64,000 bases of DNA. It comes from Methanoplanus limicola DSM 2279 (GTDB taxonomy: Archaea; Halobacteriota; Methanomicrobia; Methanomicrobiales; Methanomicrobiaceae). Shown one piece after another: positions 14,081 through 41,472 of the stretch. Numbering within the stretch: the first letter of the stretch is position 1; every line of letters begins with the position of its first letter. Both the position numbers and the translations under genes were made by a program. The stretch spans positions 1,338,077 through 1,402,076 of the forward strand of contig NZ_CM001436.1 in the NCBI RefSeq assembly GCF_000243255.1, in the 5' to 3' direction. The notes beneath the pieces were generated by a model, which had not been told where the DNA came from, searched no databases, and saw only the letters and a list, made by a program, of their open reading frames with translations.

Positions 14081-14113
14081 CCCCACCCCTTTGTTTCCTG
14101 TGGAACTTTTTTT
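14081..14113 (-). other. Origin recognition box 1 (inverted)
   Basis: Read on the minus strand this is AAAGTTCCACAGGAAACAAA followed by GGGGTGGGG. It has the archaeal ORB form: a dyad-like CCAnnGGAAAC core with a downstream G-string. It differs from ORB3 by little more than one base in the core. The G-string points left, away from the repeat arrays. Its orientation is opposite to the two boxes at 15486 and 15574. Confidence 0.8.
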
Positions 14114-14234
14114 TGGGATGCGGGTCGGCGGAAAATACCTGTGGCAAAAAAACAGGTAACAGAAAATAATCATAAGTAAATCTGCAAGTAATAATATATA
14201 AAGTACAGACATTTGATATAATTTGAAGAAAAGT

Positions 14235-14340
14235 TGAGAATAAACTGAGAATAAACTGAGAATAAACTGAGAATAAACTGAGAATAAACTGAGAATAAAC
14301 TGAGAATAAACTGAGAATAAACTGAGAATAAACTGAGTAG
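14235..14340 (+). repeat. Nine tandem 11-bp repeats inside the origin
   Basis: The unit TGAGAATAAAC is repeated nine times without a mismatch (14235-14333), followed by a partial TGAG. It shares the core GAGAATAA with the longer repeats to its right. Perfect identity suggests recent expansion or functional constraint. It resembles iterons or a melting element in form; the role is inferred. Confidence 0.95.
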
Positions 14341-14419
14341 TAAATAACCAAGTTAACCAAAGTAAGCAGGAAATAAAGAGATGGACTAGGAATAAAAAAA
14401 ACCGGACAACAACAGGAAA

Positions 14420-15190
14420 ATAACCAAAAAGAAAGAAAAACGGGAACAGGCAGAGAATAAGCAGAATAACCCAACAATAACGGAGAATACCCAAAAAAGC
14501 AAGAAAAAAAGAACAGCCAGAGAATAAGCAGAATAACCAAATAACAGCATGGAAAAAGAGAAAAAACGTAGAACAGTCAGAGAATAAGCAGAATAACAAG
14601 GAAATAACGGAGAATACCCAAAAAAGCAAGAAAAAAAAGAACAGCCAGAAAATAAGCAGAATAACCAAATAACAGCATGGAAAAAGAGAAAAAACGTGAA
14701 CAGTCAGAGAATAAGTAGAATAACAAGGAAATAACGGAGAATACCCAAAAAAGCAAGAAAAAAAGAACAGCCAGAAAATAAGCAGAATAACCAAATAACA
14801 GCATGAAAAAAGAGAAAAAACGTGAACAGTCAGAGAATAAGCAGAATAACAAGGAAATAACGGAGAATACCCAAAAAAGCAAGAAAAAAAGAACAGCCAG
14901 AGAATAAGCAGAATAACCAAATAACAGCATGGAAAAAGAGAAAAAAAACGTGAACAGTCAGAGAATAAGCAGAATAACAAGGAAATAACGGAGAATACCC
15001 AAAAAAGCAAGAAAAAAGAACAGCCAGAAAATAAGCAGAATAACCAAATAACAGCATGGAAAAAGAGAAAAAAAACGTGAACAGGCAGAGAATAAGTAGA
15101 ATAATCCAACAATAACGGAGAATACCCAAAAAAGCAAGAAAAAAAGAACAGCCAGAAATAAGCAGAATAACCCGGTAATAACAGAGAAAT
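14420..15190 (+). repeat. Six tandem ~127-bp A-rich repeats inside the origin
   Basis: The landmark CGGAGAATACCC recurs at 14481, 14608, 14735, 14861, 14989 and 15116, giving periods of 127, 127, 126, 128 and 127 bp. Each unit consists of two related halves of about 63 bp, each starting near GAACAG(C/T)CAGAGAATAAGC. The two end units carry CCAACAATAA before the landmark, whereas internal units carry AAGGAAATAA. Periods not divisible by three mean that the long open frames on the minus strand are not one conserved protein. The array is treated as non-coding. Confidence 0.93.
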
Positions 15191-15485
15191 AAGGAAAAGA
15201 AGAAAAATAAGCAAAATAACCTGGGGATAAACAAGGAGCAAGGGAGAAGAAAAAGAATAAACAAAATCAGAGCAAAAGAAGAGCAAAAATAAGCTAAAGG
15301 TCAGGAAATGATAAAATTTTTCCGGAAACTGAAATATGACCTACTGGTAAAAAATTGAATTTTACTTTCATAAAAGAAGCTTTGTGAAATATTATTTTGT
15401 TCTCCGTGTAAGGACAAAACCAACAGGAGAACTGCAACTTTTTCAGTAAATTTATACAACTCCAAAAAAAACCTGCCAAATCCAA

Positions 15486-15516
15486 AAAAAGTTCCAGTGG
15501 AAATAAAGGGGTGGGG
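15486..15516 (+). other. Origin recognition box 2
   Basis: The core CCAGTGGAAATAAAGGGGTG, preceded by an A run and GTT and extended by a second GGGG string, lies at about 15486-15516. It is same-strand with ORB3 and inverted relative to ORB1, with the G-string pointing right toward orc1/cdc6. Confidence 0.8.
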
Positions 15517-15573
15517 TTATGACCTTCAAAAAATTTTCAGGAAAATGAATAATTTATTCTGAATATTTCAAAA

Positions 15574-15600
15574 ACTCCAGTGGAAACAAAGGGGTTAAAT
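15574..15600 (+). other. Origin recognition box 3
   Basis: The core is CCAGTGGAAACAAAGGGGT, preceded by AAAACT and followed by TAAAT. It is the best ORB match in the window. It lies 88 bp from ORB2 in the same orientation. Confidence 0.82.
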
Positions 15601-15967
15601 GCTATAGGAATGAGATCAATAACAGCAACCGGTAAAGCTTCACCGGCAATGATATTTCCGGAATTTTTGCAAATATTTTAGTCCGGGCCGTTCAGGATAA
15701 AAATTTCTGAAATATGGCATTTTAAGGATTAAAATCTGATTCCTCCGGAATAGAACATTAATTTCCGGGGTCATATCAACAGCACTGCTTATAGTGTTAA
15801 ATTCTGTAATGACAGGAAAAATCCACACCAGGAGTGCGCAGTTTCCTGCTAATAATAATAATAATATTTTCATCAAAAAAGGTCAAATCTTGTCTGTTAA
15901 CAGATTCCGGAGTGGATCATAAATATTCAGTTTAAGAGGACAATTCAGAAAATGAGGAGGAATACTA

Positions 15968-17287
15968 TTGACTAACAGTCCGGATGGGACAAAAGAAATG
16001 GTTCAGGCTGAAAAAAAATCCGGTTCATCCGGACTTTTTAACAAGTACCTGAAAAACAGAGGTATATTCAAAAACAGGGAAGTGTTAAGACATTCTTTCA
16101 GGCCTAATAATCTCCCTCACAGGACACCACAGATTGATTCCATTGCAGCAATTCTTGCTCCCTCTATAAGAAATGAGACACCCTCAAATATTCTTATCTA
16201 TGGCAAAACCGGAACTGGAAAAACAGCATGCGTAAAATATGTTGGGGCTGAACTTGAAAATGCATGCCTTGAGATGGGTAAGAGATGCAATGTCATACAC
16301 CTGAACTGTGAACTTATTGATACCCAGTACAGAGTGCTTGCCCAGATTGCAAATGAAATAGAAAATCTGGACAGCAAACCCAGTGATAAACCACGCACAA
16401 GTATCCCCATGACCGGATGGCCAACTGATCAGGTCTATGCAGAACTGAGAAATCTGCTTGAATCACTTGGCGGAGTTAATGTAATTGTACTTGATGAGAT
16501 TGACAAACTAGTCAAAAAAAGCGGAGATGAGATTCTCTATAACCTTACAAGATTTAATGGCGAGCTAAAGAATGCAAAGATAAGCATGATTGGAATATCA
16601 AATGATTTGCGATTTACCAATTTCCTCGATCCGAGGGTTCTCTCCTCTCTCTCAGAGGAAGAACTTGTTTTCCCTCCCTATAATGCCCCTCAGTTATGTG
16701 ATATTTTACAGGAAAGAGCAGATGTTGCCTTTGAAGAAGGTGTTTTAGACCTTGGGTGTATTCCTTTATGCGCTGCACTTGCCGCCCAGGAACACGGAGA
16801 TGCAAGGAGAGCACTTGATCTCCTGCGAATATCCGGAGAACTTGCAGAGAGAGAAAATGCTCCCAAAGTCTCTGAAGTACATGTAAAATCAGCCCAGCAG
16901 AAGATTGAGACTGACAGTCTTATTGTCTGTGTATCTTCGCTGCCTACACAGAGCAAGGCTGTTCTTTATGCAATGCTGATTTTATCCGATCTCAACAGAC
17001 CGGTTTTCACAACCGGAGAAGTGGCTCAGGTTTACAGAGATGTTGCACAGGCACTTGATGTAGATGTTTTAACCCACAGAAGAATTACAGATCTTATATC
17101 AGAACTTACAATGCTGGGTGTCATCAATTCAAGAGTTGTCTCAAGAGGGAGATACGGCAGAACCAAAGAGATGTGGTTTGGAACCGGAACTTCAGGGATC
17201 AGGGAAACCCTTTCAAAAGATGAGAGGTTTGAAGAAGAGAGACTGCATCAGATTGACATAGGCAGATTCAGAACCCTCTTCAGATAA
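15968..17287 (+). CDS. orc1/cdc6: Orc1/Cdc6 replication initiator
   Basis: AAA+ initiator that binds ORB elements and loads the MCM helicase. The 439 residues show Walker A GKTGTGKT (about 79-86), Walker B VIVLDEID (about 172-179), sensor 1 GISNDLRF (about 209), the arginine-containing LDPRVLSSL segment, and a C-terminal winged helix (about residues 320-420) that reads ORB DNA. The start is TTG at 15968, seven nt after a GAGGAGG SD; the first ATG (15998) has no SD. It lies directly beside the ORB array, so it is probably the cognate initiator and may autoregulate from those boxes. Confidence 0.96.
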   Translation: MTNSPDGTKEMVQAEKKSGSSGLFNKYLKNRGIFKNREVLRHSFRPNNLPHRTPQIDSIAAILAPSIRNETPSNILIYGKTGTGKTACVKYVGAELENACLEMGKRCNVIHLNCELIDTQYRVLAQIANEIENLDSKPSDKPRTSIPMTGWPTDQVYAELRNLLESLGGVNVIVLDEIDKLVKKSGDEILYNLTRFNGELKNAKISMIGISNDLRFTNFLDPRVLSSLSEEELVFPPYNAPQLCDILQERADVAFEEGVLDLGCIPLCAALAAQEHGDARRALDLLRISGELAERENAPKVSEVHVKSAQQKIETDSLIVCVSSLPTQSKAVLYAMLILSDLNRPVFTTGEVAQVYRDVAQALDVDVLTHRRITDLISELTMLGVINSRVVSRGRYGRTKEMWFGTGTSGIRETLSKDERFEEERLHQIDIGRFRTLFR

Positions 17288-18089
17288 ACCAGTTTCCCGG
17301 ATAAAATAGATATTTTTTAGTCAGGATTTTCTTCTGATATTTTCTCTTTCTCTCCGCTGTTTTGTTTTCTTTCTGTTTTCCTTCCCTGTTCTTTTCTGCT
17401 TCTTCTTCTTCCTGTTTCTGCTTGTCCGTTGTTTTGTTTTCTTTCTGTTTTCCTTCCCTGTTCTTTTCTGCTTCTTCTTCCTGTTTCTGCTTGTCCGTTG
17501 TTTTGTTTTCTTTCTGTTTTCCTTCCCTGTTCTTTTCTGCTTCTTCTTCTTCCTGTTTCTGCTTGTTCGTTGTTTTGTTTTCTTTCTGTTTTCCTTCCCT
17601 GTTCTTTTCTGCTTCTTCTTCCTGTTTCTGCTTGTCCGTTGTTTTGTTTTCTTTCTGTTTTCCTTCCCTGTTCTTTTCTGCTTCTTCTTCTTCCTGTTTC
17701 TGCTTGTCCGTTGTTTTGTTTTCTTTCTGTTTTCCTTCCCTGTTCTTTTCTGCTTCTGCTTCTTCTTCCTGTTTCTGCTTGTCCGTTGTTTTGTTTTCTT
17801 TCTGTTTTCCTTCCCTGTTCTTTTCTGCTTCTTCTTCTTCCTGTTTCTGCTTGTCCGTTGTTTTGTTTTCTTTCTGTTTTCCTTCCCTGTTCTTTTCTGC
17901 TTCTGCTTCTTCTTCCTGTTTCTGCTTGTCCGTTGTTTTGTTTTCTTTCTGTTTTCCTTTTCTGTTCCGTCCTGCTTTTTTTACTTTTTTTGTCCTGTTT
18001 TTCTCCTTCTCTTTCTTCTCTTCCGGTTTCTCACTCTGCTGTCCTGTTTTATCAGGGTCCTGCAGAATAAAAACCAGATCCAATAGCAT
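17280..18089 (-). CDS. Lys/Glu/Gln-rich repeat protein (doubtful)
   Basis: An open frame of 269 codons reading a 23-25-residue repeat of the form NREGKQKENKTTDKQKQEEE(A)EK about eight times. The product would be extremely charged and probably helical or disordered, with no known domain. For coding: all repeat periods (69, 72, 75 bp) are multiples of three, and units vary by whole GAA/GCA codons. Against: no SD before the ATG at 18089, open frames also on the plus strand, and a slight overlap with the orc1 3' end. It could be a true protein or an untranslated repeat grown by triplet slippage. Confidence 0.35.
   Translation of the reverse strand: MLLDLVFILQDPDKTGQQSEKPEEKKEKEKNRTKKVKKAGRNRKGKQKENKTTDKQKQEEEAEAEKNREGKQKENKTTDKQKQEEEEAEKNREGKQKENKTTDKQKQEEEAEAEKNREGKQKENKTTDKQKQEEEEAEKNREGKQKENKTTDKQKQEEEAEKNREGKQKENKTTNKQKQEEEEAEKNREGKQKENKTTDKQKQEEEAEKNREGKQKENKTTDKQKQEEEEAEKNREGKQKENKTAERKRKYQKKILTKKYLFYPGNWFI
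17359..17960. repeat. Nine triplet-phased 69-75-bp tandem repeats beside orc1
   Basis: The landmark GTTTTGTTTTCTTTCTG recurs at 17359, 17431, 17500, 17572, 17641, 17713, 17788, 17860 and 17935. Periods are 72, 69, 72, 69, 72, 75, 72 and 75 bp. Differences lie in the number of CTT/CTG triplets. The plus strand is almost pure pyrimidine, opposite to the purine-rich plus strand of the origin repeats on the other side of orc1. Confidence 0.95.
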
Positions 18090-18114
18090 CTATTAATCAT
18101 TATTAAAACAAAAA

Positions 18115-18140
18115 ACTCCGTTGACAAATATTGTCGGAGT
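18115..18140 (+). promoter_or_regulatory. Inverted repeat before the lrp start
   Basis: ACTCCG-TT-GACA / TGTC-GGAGT forms an imperfect dyad ending seven bases before the ATG of the Lrp-family gene. AT-rich TATA-like sequence lies about 20 bp upstream. The placement near the transcription start suggests an autoregulatory operator, or a hairpin. Confidence 0.4.
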
Positions 18141-18146
18141 CGCCCA

Positions 18147-18638
18147 ATGGATGAAAATGACAGGATGATATTATCCATACTTGAGGAAAACTGCAGAATT
18201 TCAGAGCAGGTCCTTGCGGATATGACAAACCTCAGCCGCGAGGAAGTTATATCACGAATAAAAAAGCTTGAGGAAGAAGGAATTATTAAAAATTATGTAG
18301 CGTGCATCGACTGGGAAAAAGCAGGAGACGGAGTAGTTGCAGCCATAATCGAGCTTAAAGTTTCGCCCGAAAAGGACTATGGGTATGATAAAATTGCCGA
18401 GAAGATATCAAAATTCCGGCAGGTAAAATCTCTCAGGCTTGTAAGCGGAGCATATGATCTTGAAATTCTTGTAACCGGAAGGGATATACATGAAATAGCA
18501 AGATTTGTGTCCGGTCAGATTGCTCCCCTTGAGAATATCAGAGAGACCGGGACGATACTTATAATGAAGACCTACAAAGAGAACGGGCAGCTCTATTTTG
18601 AGAAAAAGCCGGTTGAGAGACTTCCATATTCATTTTAA
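18147..18638 (+). CDS. Lrp/AsnC-family transcriptional regulator
   Basis: A 163-residue regulator. The N-terminal helix-turn-helix occupies about residues 1-60 (ILSILEENCRISEQVLADMTNLSREEVISRI) and the C-terminal RAM/ligand domain about residues 65-150. The pairing with the aminotransferase 218 bp downstream is a recurrent archaeal arrangement and suggests that it controls that gene in response to an amino acid. Dyads occur at its own start and upstream of the aminotransferase. The specific effector cannot be read from sequence. Confidence 0.9.
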   Translation: MDENDRMILSILEENCRISEQVLADMTNLSREEVISRIKKLEEEGIIKNYVACIDWEKAGDGVVAAIIELKVSPEKDYGYDKIAEKISKFRQVKSLRLVSGAYDLEILVTGRDIHEIARFVSGQIAPLENIRETGTILIMKTYKENGQLYFEKKPVERLPYSF

Positions 18639-18775
18639 GTGCTGCAGAACGGTAAAAACAGGTATAACTGGTTAAAGCAGTTAAAATCTCAGAATTATAT
18701 TGAGAGTCAGTAAAAAATCAGGACAATAAATATTCATAAATTTCCTGCAGTTCCTGCAGAGAGGATGTAGATTTT

Positions 18776-18789
18776 AGGACTTCAGTCCT
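18776..18789 (+). promoter_or_regulatory. 14-bp palindrome upstream of aminotransferase
   Basis: AGGACTTCAGTCCT is a perfect dyad (6-bp arms, 2-bp centre) immediately before a TTTAAA TATA-like element. It sits where an archaeal activator or repressor overlapping BRE/TATA would bind. The adjacent Lrp-family protein is the obvious candidate, by inference. Confidence 0.4.
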
Positions 18790-18855
18790 GGTTTAAAGAG
18801 AAGATAAATATTACCACATTAAAAAGAGACAGAAGAGAAGAACCGGAGAAAAATT

Positions 18856-20013
18856 ATGAGAGACTTTCGCTCAGAAAGAGTACGCGAAATACCACCTTCA
18901 GGGATAAGAAAATTTTTTGATATAGCCCAGGAGATGGAAGATGTAATATCACTTGGTGTCGGCGAACCGGATTATGATACACCATGGAATGTAAGGGAAG
19001 CAGCAATCAGTTCTATTGAGAAAGGTTATACAGCGTACACCTCAAACAGCGGCTTAAATGAACTCAGAGATGAGATCTCTCTCTACCAGAAGGAGAGATT
19101 CGGGGTTGATTACAATCCTGTAAATGAGGTACTGGTCACCACCGGAGCATCAGAGGCGCTCGATATAACAATAAGAACGGTCGTTAATCCGGGCGATGAG
19201 GTGCTTGTTGCAGAACCGGCATACATAGCATACTGTTCAGGAGTCATACTCTCCGGAGGAGTGCCTGTATATGTGCCCTGCCCTGCAAAGGAGAATTTCA
19301 GGCTCACACCTGACAGCCTTATGGAGAAGATAACTCCAAAATCAAAGGCGCTGCTTTGTAATTTCCCGAACAACCCCTCCGGAGGTGTGATGACTGTGGA
19401 TGACTATAAAGCAATCGCAGATGTCATTGTGGATCATGACCTCCTTTTAATCTCAGATGAGATCTACAATGAGATAACCTACGAAGGAATGCCGTCATCT
19501 GCTGCATGCGTTGAGGAACTACGTGAAAGAACAGTTATAATAAACGGTTTTTCAAAGGCATATTCAATGACCGGATGGCGGATAGGGTACATCTGTGCCC
19601 CGGAGGAGATTGCCGCCGCCGCTCTCAAAATACATCAGTACGTAATGCTCTCCGCACCTACTATGTCACAGTACGCAGCTATTGAAGCTGTTAAAAACGG
19701 CTGGGAGGCAAGAAATGAGATGGTCAGAGAGTATAATATAAGGCGTAACCTCTTCGTAAACGGGATGAGGCGTGCAGGACTTGAATGCCATATGCCCAAA
19801 GGTGCAATATACGCATTCCCGTCTGTTGAGTCCACCGGACTGTCAGATCAGGAATTTGCCGAGCGCCTCTTAAAAGAGAAGCATATAGCCGTAGTTCCGG
19901 GCAGCATATTCGGCCCTTCAGGGGCAGACCATCTCCGATGCTGCTATGCGATTTCAAGGGACAACCTTGTAACAGCGATTGAAAGAATTGAAGAGTTCGT
20001 AAACGAACTTTAG
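18856..20013 (+). CDS. Class I/II pyridoxal-phosphate aminotransferase (AspC-like)
   Basis: A fold-type I aminotransferase of 385 residues. The PLP lysine is in NGFSKAYSMTGWRIGY (about residue 235), preceded by NFPNNPSG and LLISDEIYNEITY. VGEPDYDTP near residue 36 is the usual substrate loop. It transfers an amino group between an amino acid and a 2-oxoacid. Aspartate or aromatic substrates are both plausible, and an aromatic role would suit the aro operon elsewhere in the window. It is preceded by GAAGAGAAGAACCGGAG-type SD sequence and by the dyad at 18776. Confidence 0.9.
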   Translation: MRDFRSERVREIPPSGIRKFFDIAQEMEDVISLGVGEPDYDTPWNVREAAISSIEKGYTAYTSNSGLNELRDEISLYQKERFGVDYNPVNEVLVTTGASEALDITIRTVVNPGDEVLVAEPAYIAYCSGVILSGGVPVYVPCPAKENFRLTPDSLMEKITPKSKALLCNFPNNPSGGVMTVDDYKAIADVIVDHDLLLISDEIYNEITYEGMPSSAACVEELRERTVIINGFSKAYSMTGWRIGYICAPEEIAAAALKIHQYVMLSAPTMSQYAAIEAVKNGWEARNEMVREYNIRRNLFVNGMRRAGLECHMPKGAIYAFPSVESTGLSDQEFAERLLKEKHIAVVPGSIFGPSGADHLRCCYAISRDNLVTAIERIEEFVNEL

Positions 20014-20138
20014 GTTCTGTAAAATGGTCTGTATATGATATTCAGAGCCTGGGAATAATTTTTACAGTTTCCGGGAAATTCTGTGGCAGGGCATCTCCGG
20101 AAAATCCTGTAATCCGGAAAAGTGTAATCCTTTGCGGT

Positions 20139-20162
20139 ACCCCATCATTTCCACTGGAAATC
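20139..20162 (-). other. Isolated ORB-like element
   Basis: On the minus strand the core reads CCAGTGGAAATGATGGGGTA. It differs from ORB2 (CCAGTGGAAATAAAGGGGTG) by two bases within the core up to GGGGT. It is about 4.5 kb from the origin, in the gap before pdxS. It could be an outlying initiator-binding site, a relic, or chance. Confidence 0.5.
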
Positions 20163-21973: not shown

Positions 21974-22117
21974 CAGAATCTGATATTTGAATCTGTTTCC
22001 TGGTGGACAGAATCTGAAATTCTGATATCTCATCTCTTACTTTACCCGGCAGAATCTGAAATTCTGATATTTCATCTCTTACTTTACCCGGCAGAATCTG
22101 AAATTCTGATATTTCAA
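21974..22117 (+). repeat. 42-bp tandem repeats with internal dyad upstream of purA
   Basis: The element CAGAATCTGAAATTCTGATAT starts at 22008, 22050 and 22092, two exact 42-bp steps. A diverged copy lies at 21974. Each full copy contains the inverted repeat CAGAAT-N5-ATTCTG, and copies are linked by TTCATCTCTTACTTTACCCGG or close variants. The array ends about 60 bp before the purA TATA box. It is either a repeated operator or an expanded intergenic repeat. The rest of the gap (21790-21970) shows nothing else. Confidence 0.9.
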
Positions 22118-30340: not shown

Positions 30341-30491
30341 CTTATATCACCCTTAAGGACAGAAAATTAATTCCGGAGTCCTATACAGTTTTTAGAACTG
30401 TTTATATTTAACAGGATTTCTTATGACTTTCTTCGCTGATTATGTTCCCTGAAAAATAGTTCTTAATGGACAGATATTCTGCGGATTTTTT

Positions 30492-30576
30492 TCTATATTG
30501 TGTGGTAAAATAAATGCCTGACAGATATCCTGAGGATTTTATCTATATTGTGTGGTAAAATAAATGCCTGACAGAT
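30492..30576. repeat. Two 35-bp direct repeats, 50-bp period
   Basis: TCTATATTGTGTGGTAAAAT and the following AAATGCCTGACAGAT occur at 30492-30526 and again at 30542-30576, identical over 35 bp. They lie between the ABC ATPase stop and the ArsR gene, so they are in the ArsR promoter region on the minus strand. They could be regulator sites or a simple duplication. Confidence 0.85.
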
Positions 30577-32465: not shown

Positions 32466-33605
32466 TTACTTCATTTCCAGTTTTTTAAAGACTTTATTGT
32501 CAAATTCACTTTTCATCTGATCAAATACCGGTTCTCCTATGAGATAGGTATAGATTTCATCTGCTTTTGTCACGGGATCAATGTCGCTGAATTTATCCGG
32601 GTAAAGAATTTTTCCTGTAAAATAAGCATCAGCAATTTCACTTCCATGGTTTATGGAATACCAGTTGTATGGTAAGACACCGTATACTTCTCCGGATTTG
32701 ACCGCATTTAGTTGTTGATATGATGGATCTTCCTTTAATTCAGTTATTGCATTTGGATCAGTCTGAAGAGTTGAGAGGTCAACAAATATAATTTCAGGAT
32801 CCCATTCAATTATCTTCTCCTTTGCAACATCAGCATGTTCTGTACCCATACCTTCTGCAACATTGAGTGCATTTATGAATGCAAACGGTGGATAGGTTGG
32901 TTCGGTTGACTGGAATCCGTGTGGACCGTGATAGGCTATTCCACCAACGTAGGTTGTCTTTTTCTCTTCGTCAGGAATATTTTCAGTTCTCTTCTGAAGG
33001 TCTCCTGTCATCTCATCAAAGAATGTTATAACATCTTCTGCTCTTTCATCCTGCCCCATAACTTTTCCCATGATTCTCAGGGTTTTATCCATGTCTTCCC
33101 TGTAAACTCCGAGTGTTCCATAGTTGAGGGCTACGACAGGTACTCCTGTCTTTGTTGAAAGTTCATCTGCATCACCTGCGGAGGTTAAAAAGGTCTTAAA
33201 GATGACCTGCGGGTCTGCGGCAACTATCTTTTCAGGATCGTCATTGCCTCTGAATTCCCCTATTAACGGATATTCCTTAAACTGTGGGTTTGCAAGTGAG
33301 TATGGTCTTGCATCAAACATTGTTTCCTTTATCTCAATGTCATCCACACCGACAATTTTATCCTGCGCCTGAAGGTATGTCAGATATCTTAAGCATCCCG
33401 GTCCTGAGCAGACAACCCTTTCAGGGTTTTTTGGAACAGTTACTTCTCTTCCAAGAGAGTCTGTAACTTTAATGGTCTCAGTTACTGATGTTTCATCTGT
33501 ATTTTGTGTATTTACTGAAGCATTTCCGGTGCATCCGCATGTAAATGCCAGTATTAATCCTGCAAGAATTATCAGGACTGTAGCCGGTTTTAAAATTTTT
33601 TTCAT
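32466..33605 (-). CDS. Iron-complex-type ABC substrate-binding lipoprotein
   Basis: A 379-residue extracytoplasmic binding protein. An N-terminal signal with a lipobox-like end (CGCTGN, likely lipid-bearing Cys25) and a short Thr/Ser linker precede the FecB/BtuF fold beginning TIKVTDSLGREVTVPKNPERVV. The motif SGPGCLRYLTYL and the paired helices with ADPQVIF and WDPEIIFVD are typical of class III binding proteins. As first gene of the operon it delivers ligand to the permease at 31354. The ligand (ferric chelate, haem or corrinoid) cannot be settled from sequence. Confidence 0.9.
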   Translation of the reverse strand: MKKILKPATVLIILAGLILAFTCGCTGNASVNTQNTDETSVTETIKVTDSLGREVTVPKNPERVVCSGPGCLRYLTYLQAQDKIVGVDDIEIKETMFDARPYSLANPQFKEYPLIGEFRGNDDPEKIVAADPQVIFKTFLTSAGDADELSTKTGVPVVALNYGTLGVYREDMDKTLRIMGKVMGQDERAEDVITFFDEMTGDLQKRTENIPDEEKKTTYVGGIAYHGPHGFQSTEPTYPPFAFINALNVAEGMGTEHADVAKEKIIEWDPEIIFVDLSTLQTDPNAITELKEDPSYQQLNAVKSGEVYGVLPYNWYSINHGSEIADAYFTGKILYPDKFSDIDPVTKADEIYTYLIGEPVFDQMKSEFDNKVFKKLEMK

Positions 33606-33869
33606 AAATTACGCGTACCTCAACAATAATAGATCTTATTCAATGTAGTTAATAAGAATTTCTAAAAATGTATGAATTATTCAATACTATTTTAATTTTT
33701 TAATAATGATTTACATCACTATTTTACTGTGGTCTGATTATTTCCCGGAAGTGTCCTCCCCGGTATTAATTGTGTTAATGCGGTGGGTCTGTGTTGAAAT
33801 TTGCAGCAAGGGATACCTTAATGTATTTTTGCGCATATGAGTAATATATACAAACGAGGTGAAAGAAAA

Positions 33870-34142
33870 ATGCCAGGATTTGACAGAACAGGACCTCAGG
33901 GAAGAGGGCCGATGACAGGAAGAGGAATGGGACAGTGCCGGTCTGAAAATATTTCAGGTGCGACCGCTCAGGCTGACACAGAAGGAGAAACAGCTAATAT
34001 TGGTGTTATCAGAACTCCTGGCAATGTTCCTCCGGCAGGAAACATTGTATATGGTGCTGGCCGTGGTGGTGTTCCACGTGGTTGCGGAATGGGATTTTGC
34101 GGCGGACGTGGAGGAAGAGGCAGGGGAAGAGGGAGATTCTGA
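33870..34142 (+). CDS. Small Gly/Arg-rich protein (DUF5320-like)
   Basis: A 90-residue protein starting MPGFDRTGPQGRGPMTGRGMGQC, the characteristic start of a small family frequent in anaerobes, often near iron-sulfur or nitrogenase-cofactor-type proteins. The C-terminus is GCGMGFCGGRGGRGRGRGRF, basic and disordered, with Cys residues at both ends. A GAGGTGA SD lies 8 bases before ATG 33870; the upstream ATG at 33837 gives a non-family extension. The function is unknown. A role in metal binding is a guess from the Cys positions. Confidence 0.75.
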   Translation: MPGFDRTGPQGRGPMTGRGMGQCRSENISGATAQADTEGETANIGVIRTPGNVPPAGNIVYGAGRGGVPRGCGMGFCGGRGGRGRGRGRF

Positions 34143-34208
34143 ATAGGATCTCCTTATTTCTCAGAAATAGTGATTATATTTGAATTTTAAATTATTTTTG
34201 TTTCAAAA

Positions 34209-34643
34209 TTATTTTATCTCCAGCCCCTTTGATTCTTTAATGCAGTCTATGGAAGGTACGTAGGGCTTTATATCTATTACCGGGGTATTGTCAAGAGCGT
34301 CAAGTCCGGATACTTTTATGATTCCGTTCTCAACGGAAATTATACGGGCTATATCAAATCCAATCGGGTTTGGACGGTGGGGTGACCTTATGGTGAATAC
34401 TGGCCTTGGAGCCTTTGCACCCGGAGGTGTGCCTGAGAGGAGTTTTCTGTCTGCTTTATCAAACCACAGGAGGACAATCAGGTGTGTGATACCTTCAAAT
34501 GTTCCGAGTCCCTCCCTGAACTCCTCAAAGATCTCTATCTCCATCTCTTCGTCCGGTTTTAATGCGCCCTGTCTTGGTGCATCTCCATGGATTTTGTATG
34601 GCGATTTTACTATCCCTATCGGGACTGTTTCATAGGTTTCCAT
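34209..34643 (-). CDS. trmO: tRNA N6-threonylcarbamoyladenosine methyltransferase TrmO
   Basis: TrmO (TsaA/YaeB family) methylates t6A37 to m6t6A using SAM. The 144 residues correspond to the single-domain form. Visible are PIGIVKSPYK at the N-terminus, the FEGITHLIVLLWF core, and the signature TIRSPHRPNPIGFDIARI. It acts downstream of the KEOPS pathway, one subunit of which (Cgi121) is at 12924. The gene is convergent with the small Gly/Arg-rich gene. Confidence 0.92.
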   Translation of the reverse strand: METYETVPIGIVKSPYKIHGDAPRQGALKPDEEMEIEIFEEFREGLGTFEGITHLIVLLWFDKADRKLLSGTPPGAKAPRPVFTIRSPHRPNPIGFDIARIISVENGIIKVSGLDALDNTPVIDIKPYVPSIDCIKESKGLEIK

Positions 34644-34742
34644 ATCTGCCGCCTGTGTGTCTGGTTAATATTTAATCCGGAAAACCGGATTTTTGGTTAT
34701 TATTTCCTATCCTGGCTCCGGGTTTTGATATCTATATTTTTG

Positions 34743-35360
34743 TTATCTGTTTATGCCAAGGTATTCATTATAGCATGGTATGCAGACAATTTTTCCGTCC
34801 TGAACTCTGGCCCTTGATTCTGATACTGTCTCACCGCATGAACTGCATTCAACCGAGCTGAATATCCTTGCCCTCTCGGGAATATCCGGTTTAACATGCT
34901 TTACCTCAAATATCTCCTCTGCCGGTGATGTAAGGTAGATGTCAATCAGTTTCAGTCTTGCTCTGTCAAATGCTGCTTTTTCTTCAGGTGTTGCGGTTCC
35001 GGCAAAGACATTTGCCCTTGCTTTCATCGCTTTGGGATCGATCTTATCCATTGATGACGTATCTTTCAGGACGATTCTCACTGCATCGCTGCTGTCTCTT
35101 AAGATAAATGTATAGACCTGTTTGCCGTAATCCCTGAATATGAGATTTCCCTTTCCCATTGTACATCCGGTGATATACTGCACTCCGTCAACGCTGCATG
35201 CATCATTTTCTGCAATACAGACAAGTTCTTCGTCCTCTGATCTGCCGGAGAGGAGTTCTTTCATTGCGATCTCTGATGCGCGGTAGCCTATTGCAAGGCC
35301 GGGGCAGTTGTGGCCGTGGAATTTTATTGCTTCTTCGTATGGTTTTATTGTGATTTCCAT
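34743..35360 (-). CDS. FmdE-family protein with C-terminal zinc ribbon
   Basis: A 205-residue protein of the formylmethanofuran dehydrogenase subunit E family. The conserved N-terminal FHGHNCPGLAIGYRAS (Cys19) is followed by CIAENDACSVDGVQYITGCTMGKGNL, giving the Cys/His/Asp set of the family. A C-terminal CSSCGETV ... CIPCYNEY zinc ribbon is present. FmdE proteins occur widely in methanogens, but this gene is not next to fwd/fmd genes, so direct participation in CO2 reduction is not shown; a metal- or cofactor-trafficking role is equally possible. It stands at the left edge of the AT-rich island. Confidence 0.87.
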   Translation of the reverse strand: MEITIKPYEEAIKFHGHNCPGLAIGYRASEIAMKELLSGRSEDEELVCIAENDACSVDGVQYITGCTMGKGNLIFRDYGKQVYTFILRDSSDAVRIVLKDTSSMDKIDPKAMKARANVFAGTATPEEKAAFDRARLKLIDIYLTSPAEEIFEVKHVKPDIPERARIFSSVECSSCGETVSESRARVQDGKIVCIPCYNEYLGINR

Positions 35361-35488
35361 AACAGATATTTTAGTTTTTTATTACTAAATATTATGATTG
35401 TTTTACTTTTTTTCAAGGATAGTTTGGATATTTCAATTTGTAACGGTAAAATTAACTGGATAGTTTAGATTGGTGGCATAATGTATAC

Positions 35489-35500
35489 AAATATTTAATT
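35489..35500 (+). promoter_or_regulatory. TATA box of rfbB
   Basis: AAATATTTAATT lies about 28-33 nt before ATG 35523, consistent with a near-leaderless transcript. The surrounding sequence is strongly AT-rich, so the exact box is uncertain. Confidence 0.35.
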
Positions 35501-35522
35501 CGTATAAATTCGACATAATTTC

Positions 35523-36515
35523 ATGCAGTATGAGGAAAAAACTCTTTTAGTAACCGGGGGTGCGGGTTTTATTGGATCTAATTTTATTCATTATTTAATG
35601 AGTATGGATCAAAATATAAATATAATTAATATTGATGCTCTAACATATGCAGCAAATTTGGAAAATATATCCTGTTTTAATGATTCAAAGAATTACTCAT
35701 TTTTTAAATCTAGCATTTGTGATAAAAAAGGTGTATCTGATGTTATTGAGAAGTTCTCTCCTGATATTATAGTTAATTTTGCAGCAGAATCTCATGTTGA
35801 TCGTAGTATAACTGATCCGGACATATTTTTAACAACAAATGTTCTGGGCACTCATAATTTATTGAATGCGGCAGAAAGACATGGAATAGATAAATTTATT
35901 CAAATATCAACGGACGAAGTTTATGGAACACTGGGTGATATGGGATATTTTACTGAAGGATCACAACTCTCCCCCAGTAGCCCATATTCGGCCAGTAAAG
36001 CTGCAGCGGACATGGTTGTTCTGTCATATTTTAAAACATATGATTTACCTGTGAATATTACAAGATGTTCTAATAATTATGGGCCATATCAACATACGGA
36101 AAAATTAATTCCACTGGTTATTTCAAAATGTTTGAAAAAAGAGGCTATACCAGTTTATGGAGATGGGCTTAATATACGTGATTGGTTATATGTAGATGAT
36201 CACTGTTCTGCAATTTGTAATGTTATAAATAATGGTAAAATAGGAGATGTTTACAATATTGGTGCAAATAATGAGATTAGAAATATTGATCTAGTAAGAA
36301 AAATTATTTCATGCCTGAATGATAAATTGCCCTCATTAAATTTATCTTATGATTTAATCAGATACGTATCTGACAGAAAAGGACATGACAGAAGGTATGC
36401 TATAGATTCAACAAAGATAAGAAATGATTTAGGTTGGAAACCAACGGTAAATTTTGATGAAGGTCTTAATAGGACAGTTGATTGGTATCTTAAGTTTTTT
36501 AATATCAGTATCTAA
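35523..36515 (+). CDS. rfbB: dTDP-glucose 4,6-dehydratase RfbB
   Basis: Short-chain dehydrogenase family enzyme that makes dTDP-4-keto-6-deoxyglucose. The 330 residues contain the Rossmann motif GGAGFIGSNF, AAESHVDRSI, STDEVYG, the catalytic YSASK and the substrate-binding NNYGPYQHTEKLIPL. It is the only plus-strand gene of the island; rfbA and the transaminase that should use its product are at 41.5-43.4 kb on the other strand. Codons are markedly A/T-ending compared with the genes to the left, suggesting transfer. Confidence 0.95.
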   Translation: MQYEEKTLLVTGGAGFIGSNFIHYLMSMDQNINIINIDALTYAANLENISCFNDSKNYSFFKSSICDKKGVSDVIEKFSPDIIVNFAAESHVDRSITDPDIFLTTNVLGTHNLLNAAERHGIDKFIQISTDEVYGTLGDMGYFTEGSQLSPSSPYSASKAAADMVVLSYFKTYDLPVNITRCSNNYGPYQHTEKLIPLVISKCLKKEAIPVYGDGLNIRDWLYVDDHCSAICNVINNGKIGDVYNIGANNEIRNIDLVRKIISCLNDKLPSLNLSYDLIRYVSDRKGHDRRYAIDSTKIRNDLGWKPTVNFDEGLNRTVDWYLKFFNISI

Positions 36516-36582
36516 GTTTCTAAAATTTTTCCGGTTTTTTTTGTCGAAGATCAGAGTAAGATGTGTGTAAATAAATAATAGA

Positions 36583-38847
36583 TTATAATTTATTTAAATA
36601 ATCATCAACATTTTTTCTTCTGAATATCAGTAATATTAAAGATATAATTCCTATTATACTGACAATAATTCCAAATTTAACATCATTTGGGTCAAATTTA
36701 AATTCAACTATTTTTGTGTCAGAATTTAGTATGCTTGCAACCATATTTCCCGTTGGAGCAGCATCCTGGCCATTAACTTTCCAGCCATCATAATATGCTG
36801 TTTTTAGGATCGCAACATCTCCACTCTTAAAATCACCTTCAATAATTATTTTGTCAGGTGAGAATGTTGTAGTTTTAGAAGATATTATATTGTCTCCCCG
36901 AATAACAAATGCATTTGGTAAAACCTCTTCCGGTTTGTATACGGATATATTTTCTATTTTAAATGTGTAATCATGAATATTTTGATTGCCATTGTCTAAA
37001 TATGCGGTGTCTATGATGTAATCTGCTGTGTAGTACGTTACATTCCCAATGTTTATTCCTGCTGGCAAAGACGACTTTAGTACATATGGATAATGCCCTC
37101 TGACGGTATGGATACCGTTTTTCATTAGTATGTAGTTGAAATCCTGATGATAGTATTCCCATCCATTCGTGTATGCCCATATTTGAGAATTATCAGAACC
37201 CATTTCTATTATTTTTTCTGCAATCTCATTTGCAGGACTATTTTCAAGATTGGGATTCATCTCGACTATTTTATTTGCAGGTGAAATATAGGTTAATGTA
37301 GTCATTGAAATGACTAAGAAGGAAATAAGTAATATTGCAATGTATTGATTCTTAAGTCCTAAATTCAAATTATTTTTGTTTATATAAGTTAATGTGATTA
37401 TAGTTATTAGTGTGATGACTATGAATACTGGAATAATATCTAATATCATTCCGGAATTAAAGATAATTAAAATTATTAGATTTATTGTTAAAGTGGATAT
37501 CAGATAATATTTTAATACTTTTTCTGATACTTTCTCTAAGTAGAGTAATGCAATAAATATTATAACTAACAATAAACTGATTACTGATGTAGCATTGGGA
37601 ACTGTCTGATATGGTAATTCAAGTAATTTAATTAAAATTAATCCACCTATTATGAGTTTCAGGTTAAATTTTTGTTCTTTTGAGAGTTTAAGCTTTGAAA
37701 TGTCTTTTGGCAGATTATATAATATTTTGATGCCATAAATTGCGATTACTAAAATTAAAGGTAGTAATGCCCCAAATATCCTCCCCGGACACCGCAAATT
37801 ATCTAGTACAGGTAAATAATGTATGGCCCACAGGAGATTATTTCCACCATCTGCCCAGACTAAAGAGAAGAAAACTGCAATTATTGAAGGGACTGCAATC
37901 TCTTTTTTTCCGAATACTAAACCAATTATTGCAAAGATTATGCATACAATTCCAATTAAAGCACAACTTTCTGGAAACCAGAAAGCTGAGTTAACATCAA
38001 TTGGCGTACCAAGTATTAGTGAGGCAAAATTATTTTCTAATGAACCTCCTCCCTCTAAAACATTGATATTGTCAATACGAATAACATTTTCTGAAAAATT
38101 TATTGAAGGTATTACTTTAATACCCATAATTAGTGTGCTTAATAGTGTTGGTATAAGTAGTACTGATATATATTTAATTATTTTTTTGGTTGTTATAATA
38201 TAATATAGGATGAAGATTGCTATGAGTAAATATGTTAAGATTAAGGAGTAGACGTTTCCCATTGCTAAGAGGAGACAATTGAGTAATGTAATAATTATAT
38301 AATTTTTAATTGTATTCTCTTTTAAGTACAGTATTTTGGCGAAATAATAATATATCAGGGGTATCCAGGCATAGGCAAATACAAAGAATATATGACCTGC
38401 GAATACTCTGGATAACATAAGACCTGAAAAAACATATATCAAAGAAGTCAGTAGTGTTATCTCCTTATTTTTTGTAATTAATGTGCTAAGATTGTACATT
38501 GCAAAATATGCAATTATGATATGGAGAATAACAACAATATTTACCGCATAAATGTTGTTGAAAATAAAATAAATTGGGAATGATAACGGATACAACCGGT
38601 CTGACATTATGTTTGAGATCTCGGGCATTCCGGATAGCCATAAATTATTCCACAGGGATAATGGGTTACTGGCTAAAAAAACACTTGGTTCATAAACCGA
38701 TAGAATATCTTTGTAATCACCAATAAGTAAATAGTTGTTAAGTATTATATAATTAAATGCAATTAATATAATTATTATTGGGAAAAATAGATATAGTATG
38801 TTCCCATATTTTTCTTTTAACTGTTTAATATGGTGATTTATGTTCAT
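36583..38847 (-). CDS. Large multispanning membrane protein (YfhO/GT-C-like)
   Basis: The 754 residues contain about a dozen hydrophobic helices in the first two thirds, a soluble domain of about 150 residues (about 570-720) and a last transmembrane helix before a basic tail. An early GDYKDILSVYEP loop and the C-terminal LKTAYYDGWKVNG segment are typical of YfhO-type proteins, which are linked to glycosylation of surface polymers and belong to the GT-C superfamily. A role in adding a sugar from a lipid carrier on the outer membrane face fits the neighbours. Donor and acceptor are unknown. The composition is very AT-rich. Confidence 0.78.
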   Translation of the reverse strand: MNINHHIKQLKEKYGNILYLFFPIIIILIAFNYIILNNYLLIGDYKDILSVYEPSVFLASNPLSLWNNLWLSGMPEISNIMSDRLYPLSFPIYFIFNNIYAVNIVVILHIIIAYFAMYNLSTLITKNKEITLLTSLIYVFSGLMLSRVFAGHIFFVFAYAWIPLIYYYFAKILYLKENTIKNYIIITLLNCLLLAMGNVYSLILTYLLIAIFILYYIITTKKIIKYISVLLIPTLLSTLIMGIKVIPSINFSENVIRIDNINVLEGGGSLENNFASLILGTPIDVNSAFWFPESCALIGIVCIIFAIIGLVFGKKEIAVPSIIAVFFSLVWADGGNNLLWAIHYLPVLDNLRCPGRIFGALLPLILVIAIYGIKILYNLPKDISKLKLSKEQKFNLKLIIGGLILIKLLELPYQTVPNATSVISLLLVIIFIALLYLEKVSEKVLKYYLISTLTINLIILIIFNSGMILDIIPVFIVITLITIITLTYINKNNLNLGLKNQYIAILLISFLVISMTTLTYISPANKIVEMNPNLENSPANEIAEKIIEMGSDNSQIWAYTNGWEYYHQDFNYILMKNGIHTVRGHYPYVLKSSLPAGINIGNVTYYTADYIIDTAYLDNGNQNIHDYTFKIENISVYKPEEVLPNAFVIRGDNIISSKTTTFSPDKIIIEGDFKSGDVAILKTAYYDGWKVNGQDAAPTGNMVASILNSDTKIVEFKFDPNDVKFGIIVSIIGIISLILLIFRRKNVDDYLNKL

Positions 38848-38934
38848 GCAATATATTGTGATGAATATTACATAAATACTTTTCAGATTAACGACACAGA
38901 GGGTAAATCTATTAATGACTGATCCAAGTGTAAA

Positions 38935-39306
38935 CTAAATCGAATAAAGTACTGGTAAATCTGAATTAAAGACAAATATACCAAGAATAATTATAATTAC
39001 CGCTAAAATCATTCTGGAATTAACTTTTTCTTTTAAAAAAACAGCTGAAAAAATTAATATTATTACAAAATTTAAACTTGAAAATGCATAAAAAAATTTT
39101 AAATCCATTGTTCTGAGTGCCAGTACTGAGCATACAGTTACAAGGATAAAAATCACATAAGCAATTAAAACCGGTAAATTTAAGTAATCTCCAATAATTC
39201 CGTTTATTTTTTTTCCATGTTTTGTAGCCCATTTTAAAATCGTTTGGGATATTCCGGTTAGGAGTACTGCACAAACAGCAAATAGTATATCTATGTTTAT
39301 TAACAT
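38935..39306 (-). CDS. Small 4-helix EamA/SMR transporter (ArnF-like half)
   Basis: A 123-residue protein of four hydrophobic helices, with the LTGISQTILKWATKHG start and LKEKVNSRMILAVIIIILGI end typical of EmrE/EamA half-transporters. It is the second of two adjacent, different four-helix proteins downstream of an ArnC-like glycosyltransferase. That gene order recalls the ArnE/ArnF flippase which moves polyprenyl-phosphate-sugar across the membrane. I infer the same for this pair. Confidence 0.75.
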   Translation of the reverse strand: MLINIDILFAVCAVLLTGISQTILKWATKHGKKINGIIGDYLNLPVLIAYVIFILVTVCSVLALRTMDLKFFYAFSSLNFVIILIFSAVFLKEKVNSRMILAVIIIILGIFVFNSDLPVLYSI

Positions 39307-39330
39307 TTTATTTCCTCCTATTTTTTAGAA

Positions 39331-39702
39331 TTAACCCTTGAAATCTGTCTGTTTTTTTAATTCACCTGATATTATTACAATACCAATAGATATCAGTATA
39401 AGTCCTATGATATTTCCTATAGTAATACCTTCCGCGAAAAGAACTGCTGAAGCAATAAGGATAATAAAATTAAATAGGCTCATAAAAGGATATGCGAATG
39501 AGAGAGGGAAATGTTTCAGCGCCTGTTGCCAGACAATTGCCTGTAGGAACATACAAAACAGGGATAACAAGTAAAATGAATTTGTCAGTATATTTAATGG
39601 GAATAAATATTCTGGTGATATGGTCTTTGCTGCATATTTTCCTGATATACCGGCCATTGCCTGAAATATAATGGCCAGTGTAATATATATTTGATCTTTC
39701 AT
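39331..39702 (-). CDS. Small 4-helix EamA/SMR transporter (ArnE-like half)
   Basis: From ATG 39702 it has 123 residues in four helices, with GKYAAKTISPEY, a central LKHFPLSFAYPFMSL and LFAEGITIGNIIGLILI, the paired signatures of SMR-type half-transporters. The frame is open to 39750, but that extension overlaps the preceding glycosyltransferase gene and adds no helix. It begins 10 bp after the glycosyltransferase stop. With the gene at 38935 it probably forms an antiparallel heterodimer flipping a lipid-linked sugar. Confidence 0.77.
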   Translation of the reverse strand: MKDQIYITLAIIFQAMAGISGKYAAKTISPEYLFPLNILTNSFYLLSLFCMFLQAIVWQQALKHFPLSFAYPFMSLFNFIILIASAVLFAEGITIGNIIGLILISIGIVIISGELKKQTDFKG

Positions 39703-39712
39703 CTGTATGGGG

Positions 39713-40690
39713 TTATAAATGAATTTCGTCAATAGCATACTGCTGACCATATGATACTTCAGTGAGTATTCGCCTGAGATACTCTCCTACAATACCAAGT
39801 GAAAGTAGTGTCATTCCTCCTAAAAAGGTGACTGCAACCATGAGAGAATTCCATCCTATAATTCCATATGAGGAATCTGTTAATGATTTTATTATTATCA
39901 TAGAACCATAACTAAGGCTTAAGAAACTGACTAAGGATCCAATTATTGCAATAATGGTTAGAGGAAGTGATGAATAATTTATAATTAAATTTAATGAATA
40001 TTTGAAATATTTTATGATAGTATAATTTGAATTTCCTGCTTTTCTTTCATTATGTAACACTTTAACATTTGCAATTTTATTAACCGGAGCTGATTTAGCC
40101 ATTAAGCCAAGAATAAAAGGGTATGATGATTTAATTTTTATCATATTCTTAACAACATTACTATGGTATATGGCAAAAGATGACAAGAAGATGTCATCCG
40201 GTAATAATAGTATTTCATGTATAATCTTCTGGAATTTCCGGCTTAAAAAATCCCTGAGAAGATTTTCATTCTTAGATTTGTATTTTCCATAAACTACTAA
40301 GTATCCTTCCTTAATTTTTTCAATCAGTTTCAGTATTTCTTCTGGAGGATGTTGTAAGTCATCATCAATTGTAATTACATATTTTCCGTTACAGTGATTG
40401 AAACCACATAATGTTGCATTATGCTGGCCAAAATTTTTTATTAAATGGATTATTTTAATATTATTATCTTTTTTATGAAGCTCTTTCATTCTTTCCCAGC
40501 AATTATCATTGCTGCAATCATCTACCATTATTATTTCATATGCCGAGTTTAGTTTTTTAAAGACTAATTTTATTTCTTCTATAAGTTCATTTAATGTTTG
40601 ACTGGAGTTATATACCGGGATTACTATAGAGTATTCTATAAGATCTCCTGATTCATTATTTGGTGCGATTCTTTCATTAAATTCTTCCAT
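39713..40690 (-). CDS. Family 2 glycosyltransferase, ArnC/DPM1-like with two C-terminal helices
   Basis: A 325-residue polyprenyl-phosphate sugar transferase. A GT-A domain (about 20-235) shows SIVIPVYNSSQTL, MVDDCSNDNCW and the metal-binding DDDLQHPPEE. Two hydrophobic helices follow (about 245-310, ending near EYLRRILTEV), as in ArnC/GtrB. It should transfer an activated sugar to a polyprenyl (dolichyl-type) phosphate at the inner face, for the two small transporters downstream to flip. It is 8 bp after the methyltransferase at 40699. Confidence 0.88.
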   Translation of the reverse strand: MEEFNERIAPNNESGDLIEYSIVIPVYNSSQTLNELIEEIKLVFKKLNSAYEIIMVDDCSNDNCWERMKELHKKDNNIKIIHLIKNFGQHNATLCGFNHCNGKYVITIDDDLQHPPEEILKLIEKIKEGYLVVYGKYKSKNENLLRDFLSRKFQKIIHEILLLPDDIFLSSFAIYHSNVVKNMIKIKSSYPFILGLMAKSAPVNKIANVKVLHNERKAGNSNYTIIKYFKYSLNLIINYSSLPLTIIAIIGSLVSFLSLSYGSMIIIKSLTDSSYGIIGWNSLMVAVTFLGGMTLLSLGIVGEYLRRILTEVSYGQQYAIDEIHL

Positions 40691-40698
40691 AAATTATC

Positions 40699-41472
40699 CT
40701 ATTTTAATTTTAGTACAAATAATCTTTGAATTCCATAATCACCGAAATTGGGTAGGAATGATGCTAGTCTATTAATTTCAGATAGAGGATCTAATTTATT
40801 TTTATTATTTATTTTTTTAACCCATGGATGAATTACTCTTGACATTATGTAGTATGAACTTGAAAAATCACTGTCTAACTCTACAGAGAAGTTATCATAT
40901 AAATAACTGATCACTTTTTTGTTGAGGTAATTATTATGCCAGGGTTGTTCAAGTTTTTCCAGATCAAATTCTGTTCTGAGTCTGTTTAGATTTTCCCAAT
41001 TTTCTTCCACAGCTTCAGACAGTATTATTTTACCGTCCTTTTTTAATATCTCTTTAATATTTTCCAGAGCAAGAACTTGATCTTCTGGACTTTTTAAATT
41101 GATTAATACTCTTTTTATTAATACAATATCAAATTGTTTTTCTGGATAACTGGATAGATCGAGTATGTTCCCGACAGAGAATGAGATCTGTTCTTTTTTT
41201 TCGAATTTTTTTAGATTTTCTTTCGCGACCTGAATAAGGTCTTCCGAATAGTCTATACCGTTAATTTGTATATCATTAAATCGGTTTATCAGTTCAAAAG
41301 TACAAAATCCATTATTGCATCCAAAATCACAGATTTCTTCAGTACCTGTAATATTTTTTGAAATTTCATCAATTTCTTTTTTAACCATGAAATAATCTCC
41401 CCAGGATGCTTTGTATGAATCCTTTAATTCAGCAAGAGAATTCCAGTGGTTTTGAATATCTTGATATTCCAT
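40699..41472 (-). CDS. Class I SAM methyltransferase
   Basis: A 257-residue soluble methyltransferase. SAM motif I is ICDFGCNNGFCTFEL (about 43-57), the acidic strand-2 end is NGIDYSEDLI, and a post-motif loop reads FDIVLIKRVLINL. The start overlaps the last base of the transaminase stop region (41472), so the two are coupled. Placed between a sugar transaminase and a glycosyltransferase, it plausibly methylates the amino sugar (N- or O-), by inference. The start is ATG at 41472. Confidence 0.85.
   Translation of the reverse strand: MEYQDIQNHWNSLAELKDSYKASWGDYFMVKKEIDEISKNITGTEEICDFGCNNGFCTFELINRFNDIQINGIDYSEDLIQVAKENLKKFEKKEQISFSVGNILDLSSYPEKQFDIVLIKRVLINLKSPEDQVLALENIKEILKKDGKIILSEAVEENWENLNRLRTEFDLEKLEQPWHNNYLNKKVISYLYDNFSVELDSDFSSSYYIMSRVIHPWVKKINNKNKLDPLSEINRLASFLPNFGDYGIQRLFVLKLK

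Follow-up and report, generated by a model that had tools for sequence, protein, structure and literature searches.

A conserved one-sided module and tandem arrays between the origin recognition boxes of a very probable replication origin in Methanoplanus limicola

Inverted origin recognition boxes (ORBs) with long tandem arrays between them precede the orc1/cdc6 gene of Methanoplanus limicola DSM 2279. Does the chromosome start its replication here, and if so, which part of the enclosed DNA serves the opening of the helix? To our knowledge, very little has been established on the DNA that archaeal origins need for firing besides the ORBs. The genome was available as one contig of 3,200,946 bp. 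Our window, the whole stretch of DNA that was analysed, comprised 64,000 nucleotides (genome positions 1,338,077-1,402,076), and coordinates below refer to this window unless given as genome positions. The assembly is an improved high-quality draft in one scaffold, with circularity unproven (PMC4149034).

Three ORBs were found at genome positions 1,352,161-1,353,671, just upstream of orc1/cdc6 (Table 1). Coordinates and strands bore out what a sequence-only reading of the same DNA had described, a left box inverted relative to two right ones, with the G-strings outward: the left box reads CCCC... on the plus strand and the right boxes end in GGGG. The left ORB and right ORB 1 form a 33-nt inverted repeat that is 91% complementary. 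The boxes had few mismatches, and only 0.06 ORB core matches are expected by chance in 64 kb. Across the 3.2-Mb genome, a search allowing up to 3 mismatches gave four ORB cores, all within 6.1 kb (14085-20157), and a reversed control pattern gave 0 matches in the whole genome. The spacer between the inverted ORBs is AT-rich, with 32% GC compared with 42.2% for the genome (PMC4149034). Its AT skew is +0.60, a strong A bias that was not found in the relatives. The outward arrangement upstream of orc1 was present in nearly all Methanomicrobiales genomes examined, and the right ORB pair, at 83-84 bp spacing, is common to M. limicola and its sister species.

Table 1 Features of the orc1/cdc6-proximal region of M. 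limicola, in window coordinates.
Feature	Position	Strand	Description
Left ORB	14081-14107, core ~14085-14103	-	2 mismatches; reads AGTTCCACAGGAAACAAAGGGGTGGGG on the minus strand; points left, outward
Conserved core block	14104-14228		~125 bp just inside the left ORB, between it and the 11-bp array
B word	14129-14139	-	GGTATTTTCCG; overlaps the 3' hairpin arm; direct copy of A (8/11, offset 31)
A'/B hairpin	14136-14158		inverted repeat TACCTGT-N9-ACAGGTA; arm sequence varies between genera, pairing kept
A word	14160-14170	-	ATTATTTTCTG; most conserved motif together with 14171-14203
40-bp motif match	14160-14199	+	score 34.4; next best 17.8 in 1.66 Mb of own genome
Least stable 60 bp between the ORBs	14165-14225		at the TATA-like end; predicted melting start
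TATA-like box	14193-14203	-	CTTTATATATT; ~25 bp 5' of A in reading direction
11-bp array	14235-14337	+	unit TGAGAATAAAC; 9.4 copies, 100% match
127-bp array	14426-15172	+	5.9 copies, 94% match
Right ORB 1	15491-15516, core 15494-15512	+	0 mismatches; TTCCAGTGGAAATAAAGGGGTGGGG; points right, outward
Right ORB 2	15575-15595, core 15577-15595	+	0 mismatches; CTCCAGTGGAAACAAAGGGGT; points right
orc1/cdc6 initiator gene	15968-17287	+	439 aa, TTG start, Pfam Cdc6_lid + Cdc6_C
Distal ORB-like box	20139-20157	-	follows an aminotransferase gene, in an intergenic gap downstream of orc1

Nucleotide skew was calculated for the window together with 80 stretches of 20 kb, and local changes were evaluated at scales of 150, 300 and 500 kb. 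Whichever scale was used, the sampled bins had their strongest combined GC-up/AT-down switch at 1,355,000, next to the ORBs (1,352.2-1,353.7 kb). AT skew was positive in every sampled stretch before the switch and mostly negative for ~0.5 Mb after it. Both GC and AT skew reversed again near 1.9 Mb, only ~0.55 Mb from the origin, hinting at very unequal replichores, a rearrangement, a second origin or a problem of the draft assembly. The uniqueness of the ORBs, their conserved outward design and the position of the strongest skew switch lend good support to an ORB-type origin next to orc1. Judged from this sequence evidence, chromosome replication in M. limicola very probably starts at this locus, as had been proposed. 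A divergent Orc1/Cdc6 paralogue with 27% identity is encoded 42 kb from the origin (genome positions 1,312,214-1,313,317), and no ORB was found near it at up to 3 mismatches.

Just inside the left ORB, ahead of the first array, lies a conserved module that the sequence-only reading had missed. Identity to the sister species was 90% over 14081-14228 and 91% over the 125-bp core block alone, as opposed to 54% in the left flank, 78% in the right ORB pair and 61% from the right ORBs to orc1. The core of the block recurs in relatives. Read toward its ORB, the module begins with a TATA-like box (consensus T[AT]TATA, most positions 87-97%); after ~25 bp there follow a word A resembling ATGACTATTnTC, its inverted copy A', its direct copy B and finally the ORB. 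The M. limicola module is read leftwards and is a weak example with respect to A and B, which agree at 8/11 positions, with hairpin arms of 7 bp and B ~25 bp from the ORB core. No Rfam family came near threshold for the core block, and a small gene was rejected as well, its only open frame having non-synonymous differences to the sister species (by eye). Single-strand DNA folding of the whole block was unremarkable (z 0.35), and the hairpin therefore rests on comparative evidence. None of the seven loci scanned had the module repeated next to its downstream ORBs.

For the comparison, the first 37 loci served for iterative training of a matrix of the 40-bp motif, to which a score cut-off of 14 was applied. 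The simulated null, which keeps composition and not relatedness, had a 99% value of 11.2 and a maximum of 20.1. About 28 of the 37 relatives scored above 14. The same was true for 35 of 68 held-out loci, each of these 35 having a same-direction ORB 36-67 bp ahead of the motif, and many held-out loci below the threshold show an equal motif-to-ORB distance. The module is read to the left in 6 genomes of the first set and to the right in the rest, and the ORB ahead always points the same way. On the Orc1 tree, one or two changes are enough to account for these left-reading modules, and they are consistent with inversion of the segment between the inverted ORBs.

The words of the module change together. 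Within species, A and B agreed at 7.86 of 11 positions, compared with 6.60 (maximum 7.00) after halves were swapped between species. Pairing of the hairpin was better than in shuffles (p<0.05) in 36 of 58 loci. Its covariation score was 0.325 against 0.202 ± 0.022 in shuffles, none of 500 of which reached it, and slid controls stayed at or below 0.158. The arms differ by genus, among them ACGATACAC, AAAAGCA, TGATGAGAAGA, GGAAAGG and TACCTGT. A matrix-free test required A and B to agree at 9 or more of 12 positions at an offset of 31-37, with B ending 0-9 bp before an ORB and a TATA-like box before A. This geometry was present in 34 of 77 named Methanomicrobiales loci (0.98 expected) and, outside the order, in 12 of 30 loci from six families of the same phylum (0.87 expected in simulated sequence), counts that overstate independent events because the loci are related, many of them closely. 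M. limicola itself fails this strict geometry, which its relatives show, by its longer B-to-ORB gap. None of five haloarchaea had it by the same test. As far as the open-access literature was searched, no earlier description of the module was found, and it appears to be undescribed so far.

The 11-bp and ~127-bp repeats between the ORBs, described in the sequence-only reading, were confirmed (Table 1), and the word GAGAATAA was counted 17 times from 14230 to 15300. Each 127-bp unit is in turn made up of two half-units of ~60 and 67 bp, with a 37-nt word in 13 copies. Coding was rejected for these arrays, since the 414-aa minus-strand ORF is a by-product of the T-poor plus strand and the 127-bp period, with its 126-128-bp spacing, disrupts the frame. 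Tandem arrays are common in this genome, with 90 in the 1.66 Mb sampled, which makes those at the origin less exceptional than they look; the 127-bp array ranked third by score, and a 72-bp array downstream of orc1 ranked fourth. The latter (17353-17967; 8.5 copies, 95%) lies right behind orc1 and is T-rich on the plus strand. Its period is a multiple of 3, and it is crossed by a Lys/Glu/Gln-rich minus-strand ORF of 269 aa (17280-18089) that had no Pfam match. Two more short arrays are located at 22008-22116 (42 bp × 2.6) and 30469-30576 (50 bp × 2.1).

The sequence-only reading had taken the two spacer arrays for a working element, either an expanded unwinding element or binding sites for Orc1, MCM or a DNA-bending protein. 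We know of no binder for either array. Their location between the ORBs and their A-richness on one strand (AT skew +0.60) speak for such a role, and the complementary strand would offer T-rich single strands, which are preferred by Aeropyrum Orc1 (PMC8287685). The comparison with relatives argues the other way. No array sequence aligned in the genome of the sister species (G001), although its Orc1 is 95% identical; the spacer there holds a 20/60-bp array of different sequence and an IS66-type transposase ORF. This ORF encodes 593 aa with an IS66-type transposase domain and lies between the sister's ORBs (L116, 3359-5140), which is evidence for a spacer tolerant of large insertions. Spacers across Methanomicrobiales ranged from ~0.16 kb (G034) to 2.7 kb (G001), with about 1.4 kb in M. 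limicola. About a third of the genomes have tandem repeats between the ORBs, with a different sequence in each, and three (G003, G009, G015) have ~310-bp spacers free of arrays. The units are also not initiator-like: compared with the 18-bp ORB core, their best matches were 9/18 and 11/18, at or below shuffles, and the arrays were rejected as initiator sites. Nor do the arrays lie exactly where the helix is predicted to open, as had been claimed; the least stable 60 bp were found at the TATA-like end of the module instead. The 11-bp array is the exception, since it touches the core block and continues its low-stability zone (mean 1.137 compared with 1.314 kcal/mol/step for the window), whereas the 127-bp array is more stable than both the core block and the left flank. 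Similar arrays being common elsewhere in the genome also speaks against a special role, and we regard the arrays as an improbable working element. Absent in the sister species, unrelated in other relatives, not ORB-like and not the least stable DNA, they are best read as species-specific filler, that is, expansions in an insertion-tolerant spacer. They may still serve as a weak aid to melting or to T-rich single-strand binding. As to where and how the DNA opens, the short conserved element beside one ORB makes a better candidate than the arrays. Within the window, an AT-rich island at 33600-41000 (GC down to 0.28) accounts for most of the DNA of lowest stability and was possibly acquired.

The module could also be a promoter, with a short transcript running from near A through the A'/B hairpin into the ORB, either as orc1 mRNA under Orc1 autoregulation or as an origin RNA that aids opening or priming. 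In archaea, the TATA box lies ~25 bp from the start site, and the TATA-like box is centred ~25 bp before a conserved ATGACT. The hairpin arms covary, which would suit a transcript, and since the module faces orc1 in most genomes, an orc1 promoter is possible there. However, no BRE-like purine-rich element is evident beside the TATA-like box, several genomes have no reading frame after the ATG (by eye), and no RNA family was matched. In Methanoplanus and in G003, G009 and G015 the module faces away from orc1, yet it is the best-conserved DNA there, which makes a role for orc1 only unlikely in this group. Overall, we hold a promoter to be an unlikely explanation of the module. Alternatively, the whole region might do no more than regulate orc1, its ORBs serving autoregulation, and replication would then start elsewhere. 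In favour of this, the skew does reverse at ~1.9 Mb, and Thermococcus kodakarensis is reported to be able to do without its origin, replicating origin-independently (PMC5663688). Against this stand the coincidence of the strongest skew switch of the genome with the ORBs and the finding of every ORB of the genome at this locus, and such a purely regulatory region is very improbable.

We consider it probable that the locus is an oriC1-like origin with an asymmetric module at its core, in which melting begins at the TATA-like end, the module acts in a ucm-like manner and the arrays are filler. In this mechanism, the neighbouring Orc1 would bind the outward-facing ORBs, as inferred from their conservation. 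Melting would most likely start at 14165-14225 rather than in the arrays, and the module would most likely be a site that is recognised by its sequence and borders the unwinding element. There, a factor other than Orc1, a local hairpin or both may retain MCM on one side or let it go. The arrays would be recent slippage-type expansions that at most extend an easily opened, strand-biased region. A further idea, which we put forward as doubtful, is that TATA-A-A'-B-ORB is ancestral to the origins of methanogen-type Halobacteriota and that its A' can pair with either A or B, as a structural switch. If so, mutually exclusive hairpins, formed in a short origin transcript or in the bubble of melted DNA, would gate opening, or primer or MCM handling, on one side, and the words of the switch would turn over between genera while the pairing persists.

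The module has been kept over several families while the spacer was freely replaced by arrays and even by a transposase gene. The conspicuous repeats of an origin can thus be its least informative part. Direct or AT-rich repeats are present in bacterial origins as E. coli 13-mers and plasmid iterons. The M. limicola arrays share with these the presence of direct repeats inside an origin, but units of the iteron type, conserved in relatives and similar to initiator sites, were not found, the 11-bp and 127-bp arrays not being conserved even within the genus.

As an origin, the locus belongs to a known kind. The archaeal oriC1 of Pyrococcus, Sulfolobus and Aeropyrum are ORB-type origins (reviewed in PMC4010727), and the M. 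limicola locus resembles them in its inverted G-string ORBs around an AT-rich region, its place upstream of orc1/cdc6 and the skew switch. The AT-rich region of these models is compact, the Sulfolobus ORB3-DUE-ORB2 spanning 130 bp, whereas here it is a ~1.4-kb spacer filled with species-specific arrays, and M. limicola adds the one-sided TATA/A/A'/B module beside one ORB. Haloarcula hispanica oriC1 has an inverted repeat inside its inverted ORBs that enhances firing (PMC3936714). Its arms are G-rich, with one at each ORB (PMC3936714), in contrast to M. limicola, where TACCTGT/ACAGGTA lies wholly beside the left ORB, and where arms of this type are variable and tied to a TATA-like box and the third copy A.

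The distal ORB-like box also has a parallel. A box at a comparable place downstream of orc1 was found in 30 of 59 related loci, with distal boxes in relatives ~+3.0-3.3 kb from the orc1 start (e.g., L165, L173, L151), often as two outward-facing boxes separated by ~215 bp and lacking the module. ORB-like boxes downstream of the initiator gene are also known from H. hispanica oriC2D (PMC3936714), which has eleven of them, compared with one to three here. The M. limicola box is possibly an initiator-titration site.

The closest functional comparison is with ucm, which was recently shown to be essential in Sulfolobus by authors who asked about analogous factors in more distant archaea (PMC12141716). 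In linker scanning of that origin, the ORBs and ucm proved necessary, and the remaining DUE tolerated substitution (PMC12141716). UBP binds both ucm and MCM and has more than 300 genomic sites; its gene is an acquisition in Desulfurococcales and Sulfolobales, the only groups from which UBP is known (PMC12141716). In both systems, a short conserved motif lies in the ORB-bounded AT-rich region. Sulfolobus ucm is 11 bp long and has no A/A'/B structure, whereas in methanogens the word sequences change between genera. The M. limicola motif differs from the ATTATACAAAC-type sequence and, instead of hundreds of sites, has one strong match in the sampled half of the genome (1.66 Mb), so that the module may work like ucm but is not classed as ucm. 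It would be the methanogen counterpart of ucm by function, not by sequence, and it provides methanogens with a concrete, position-fixed candidate element.
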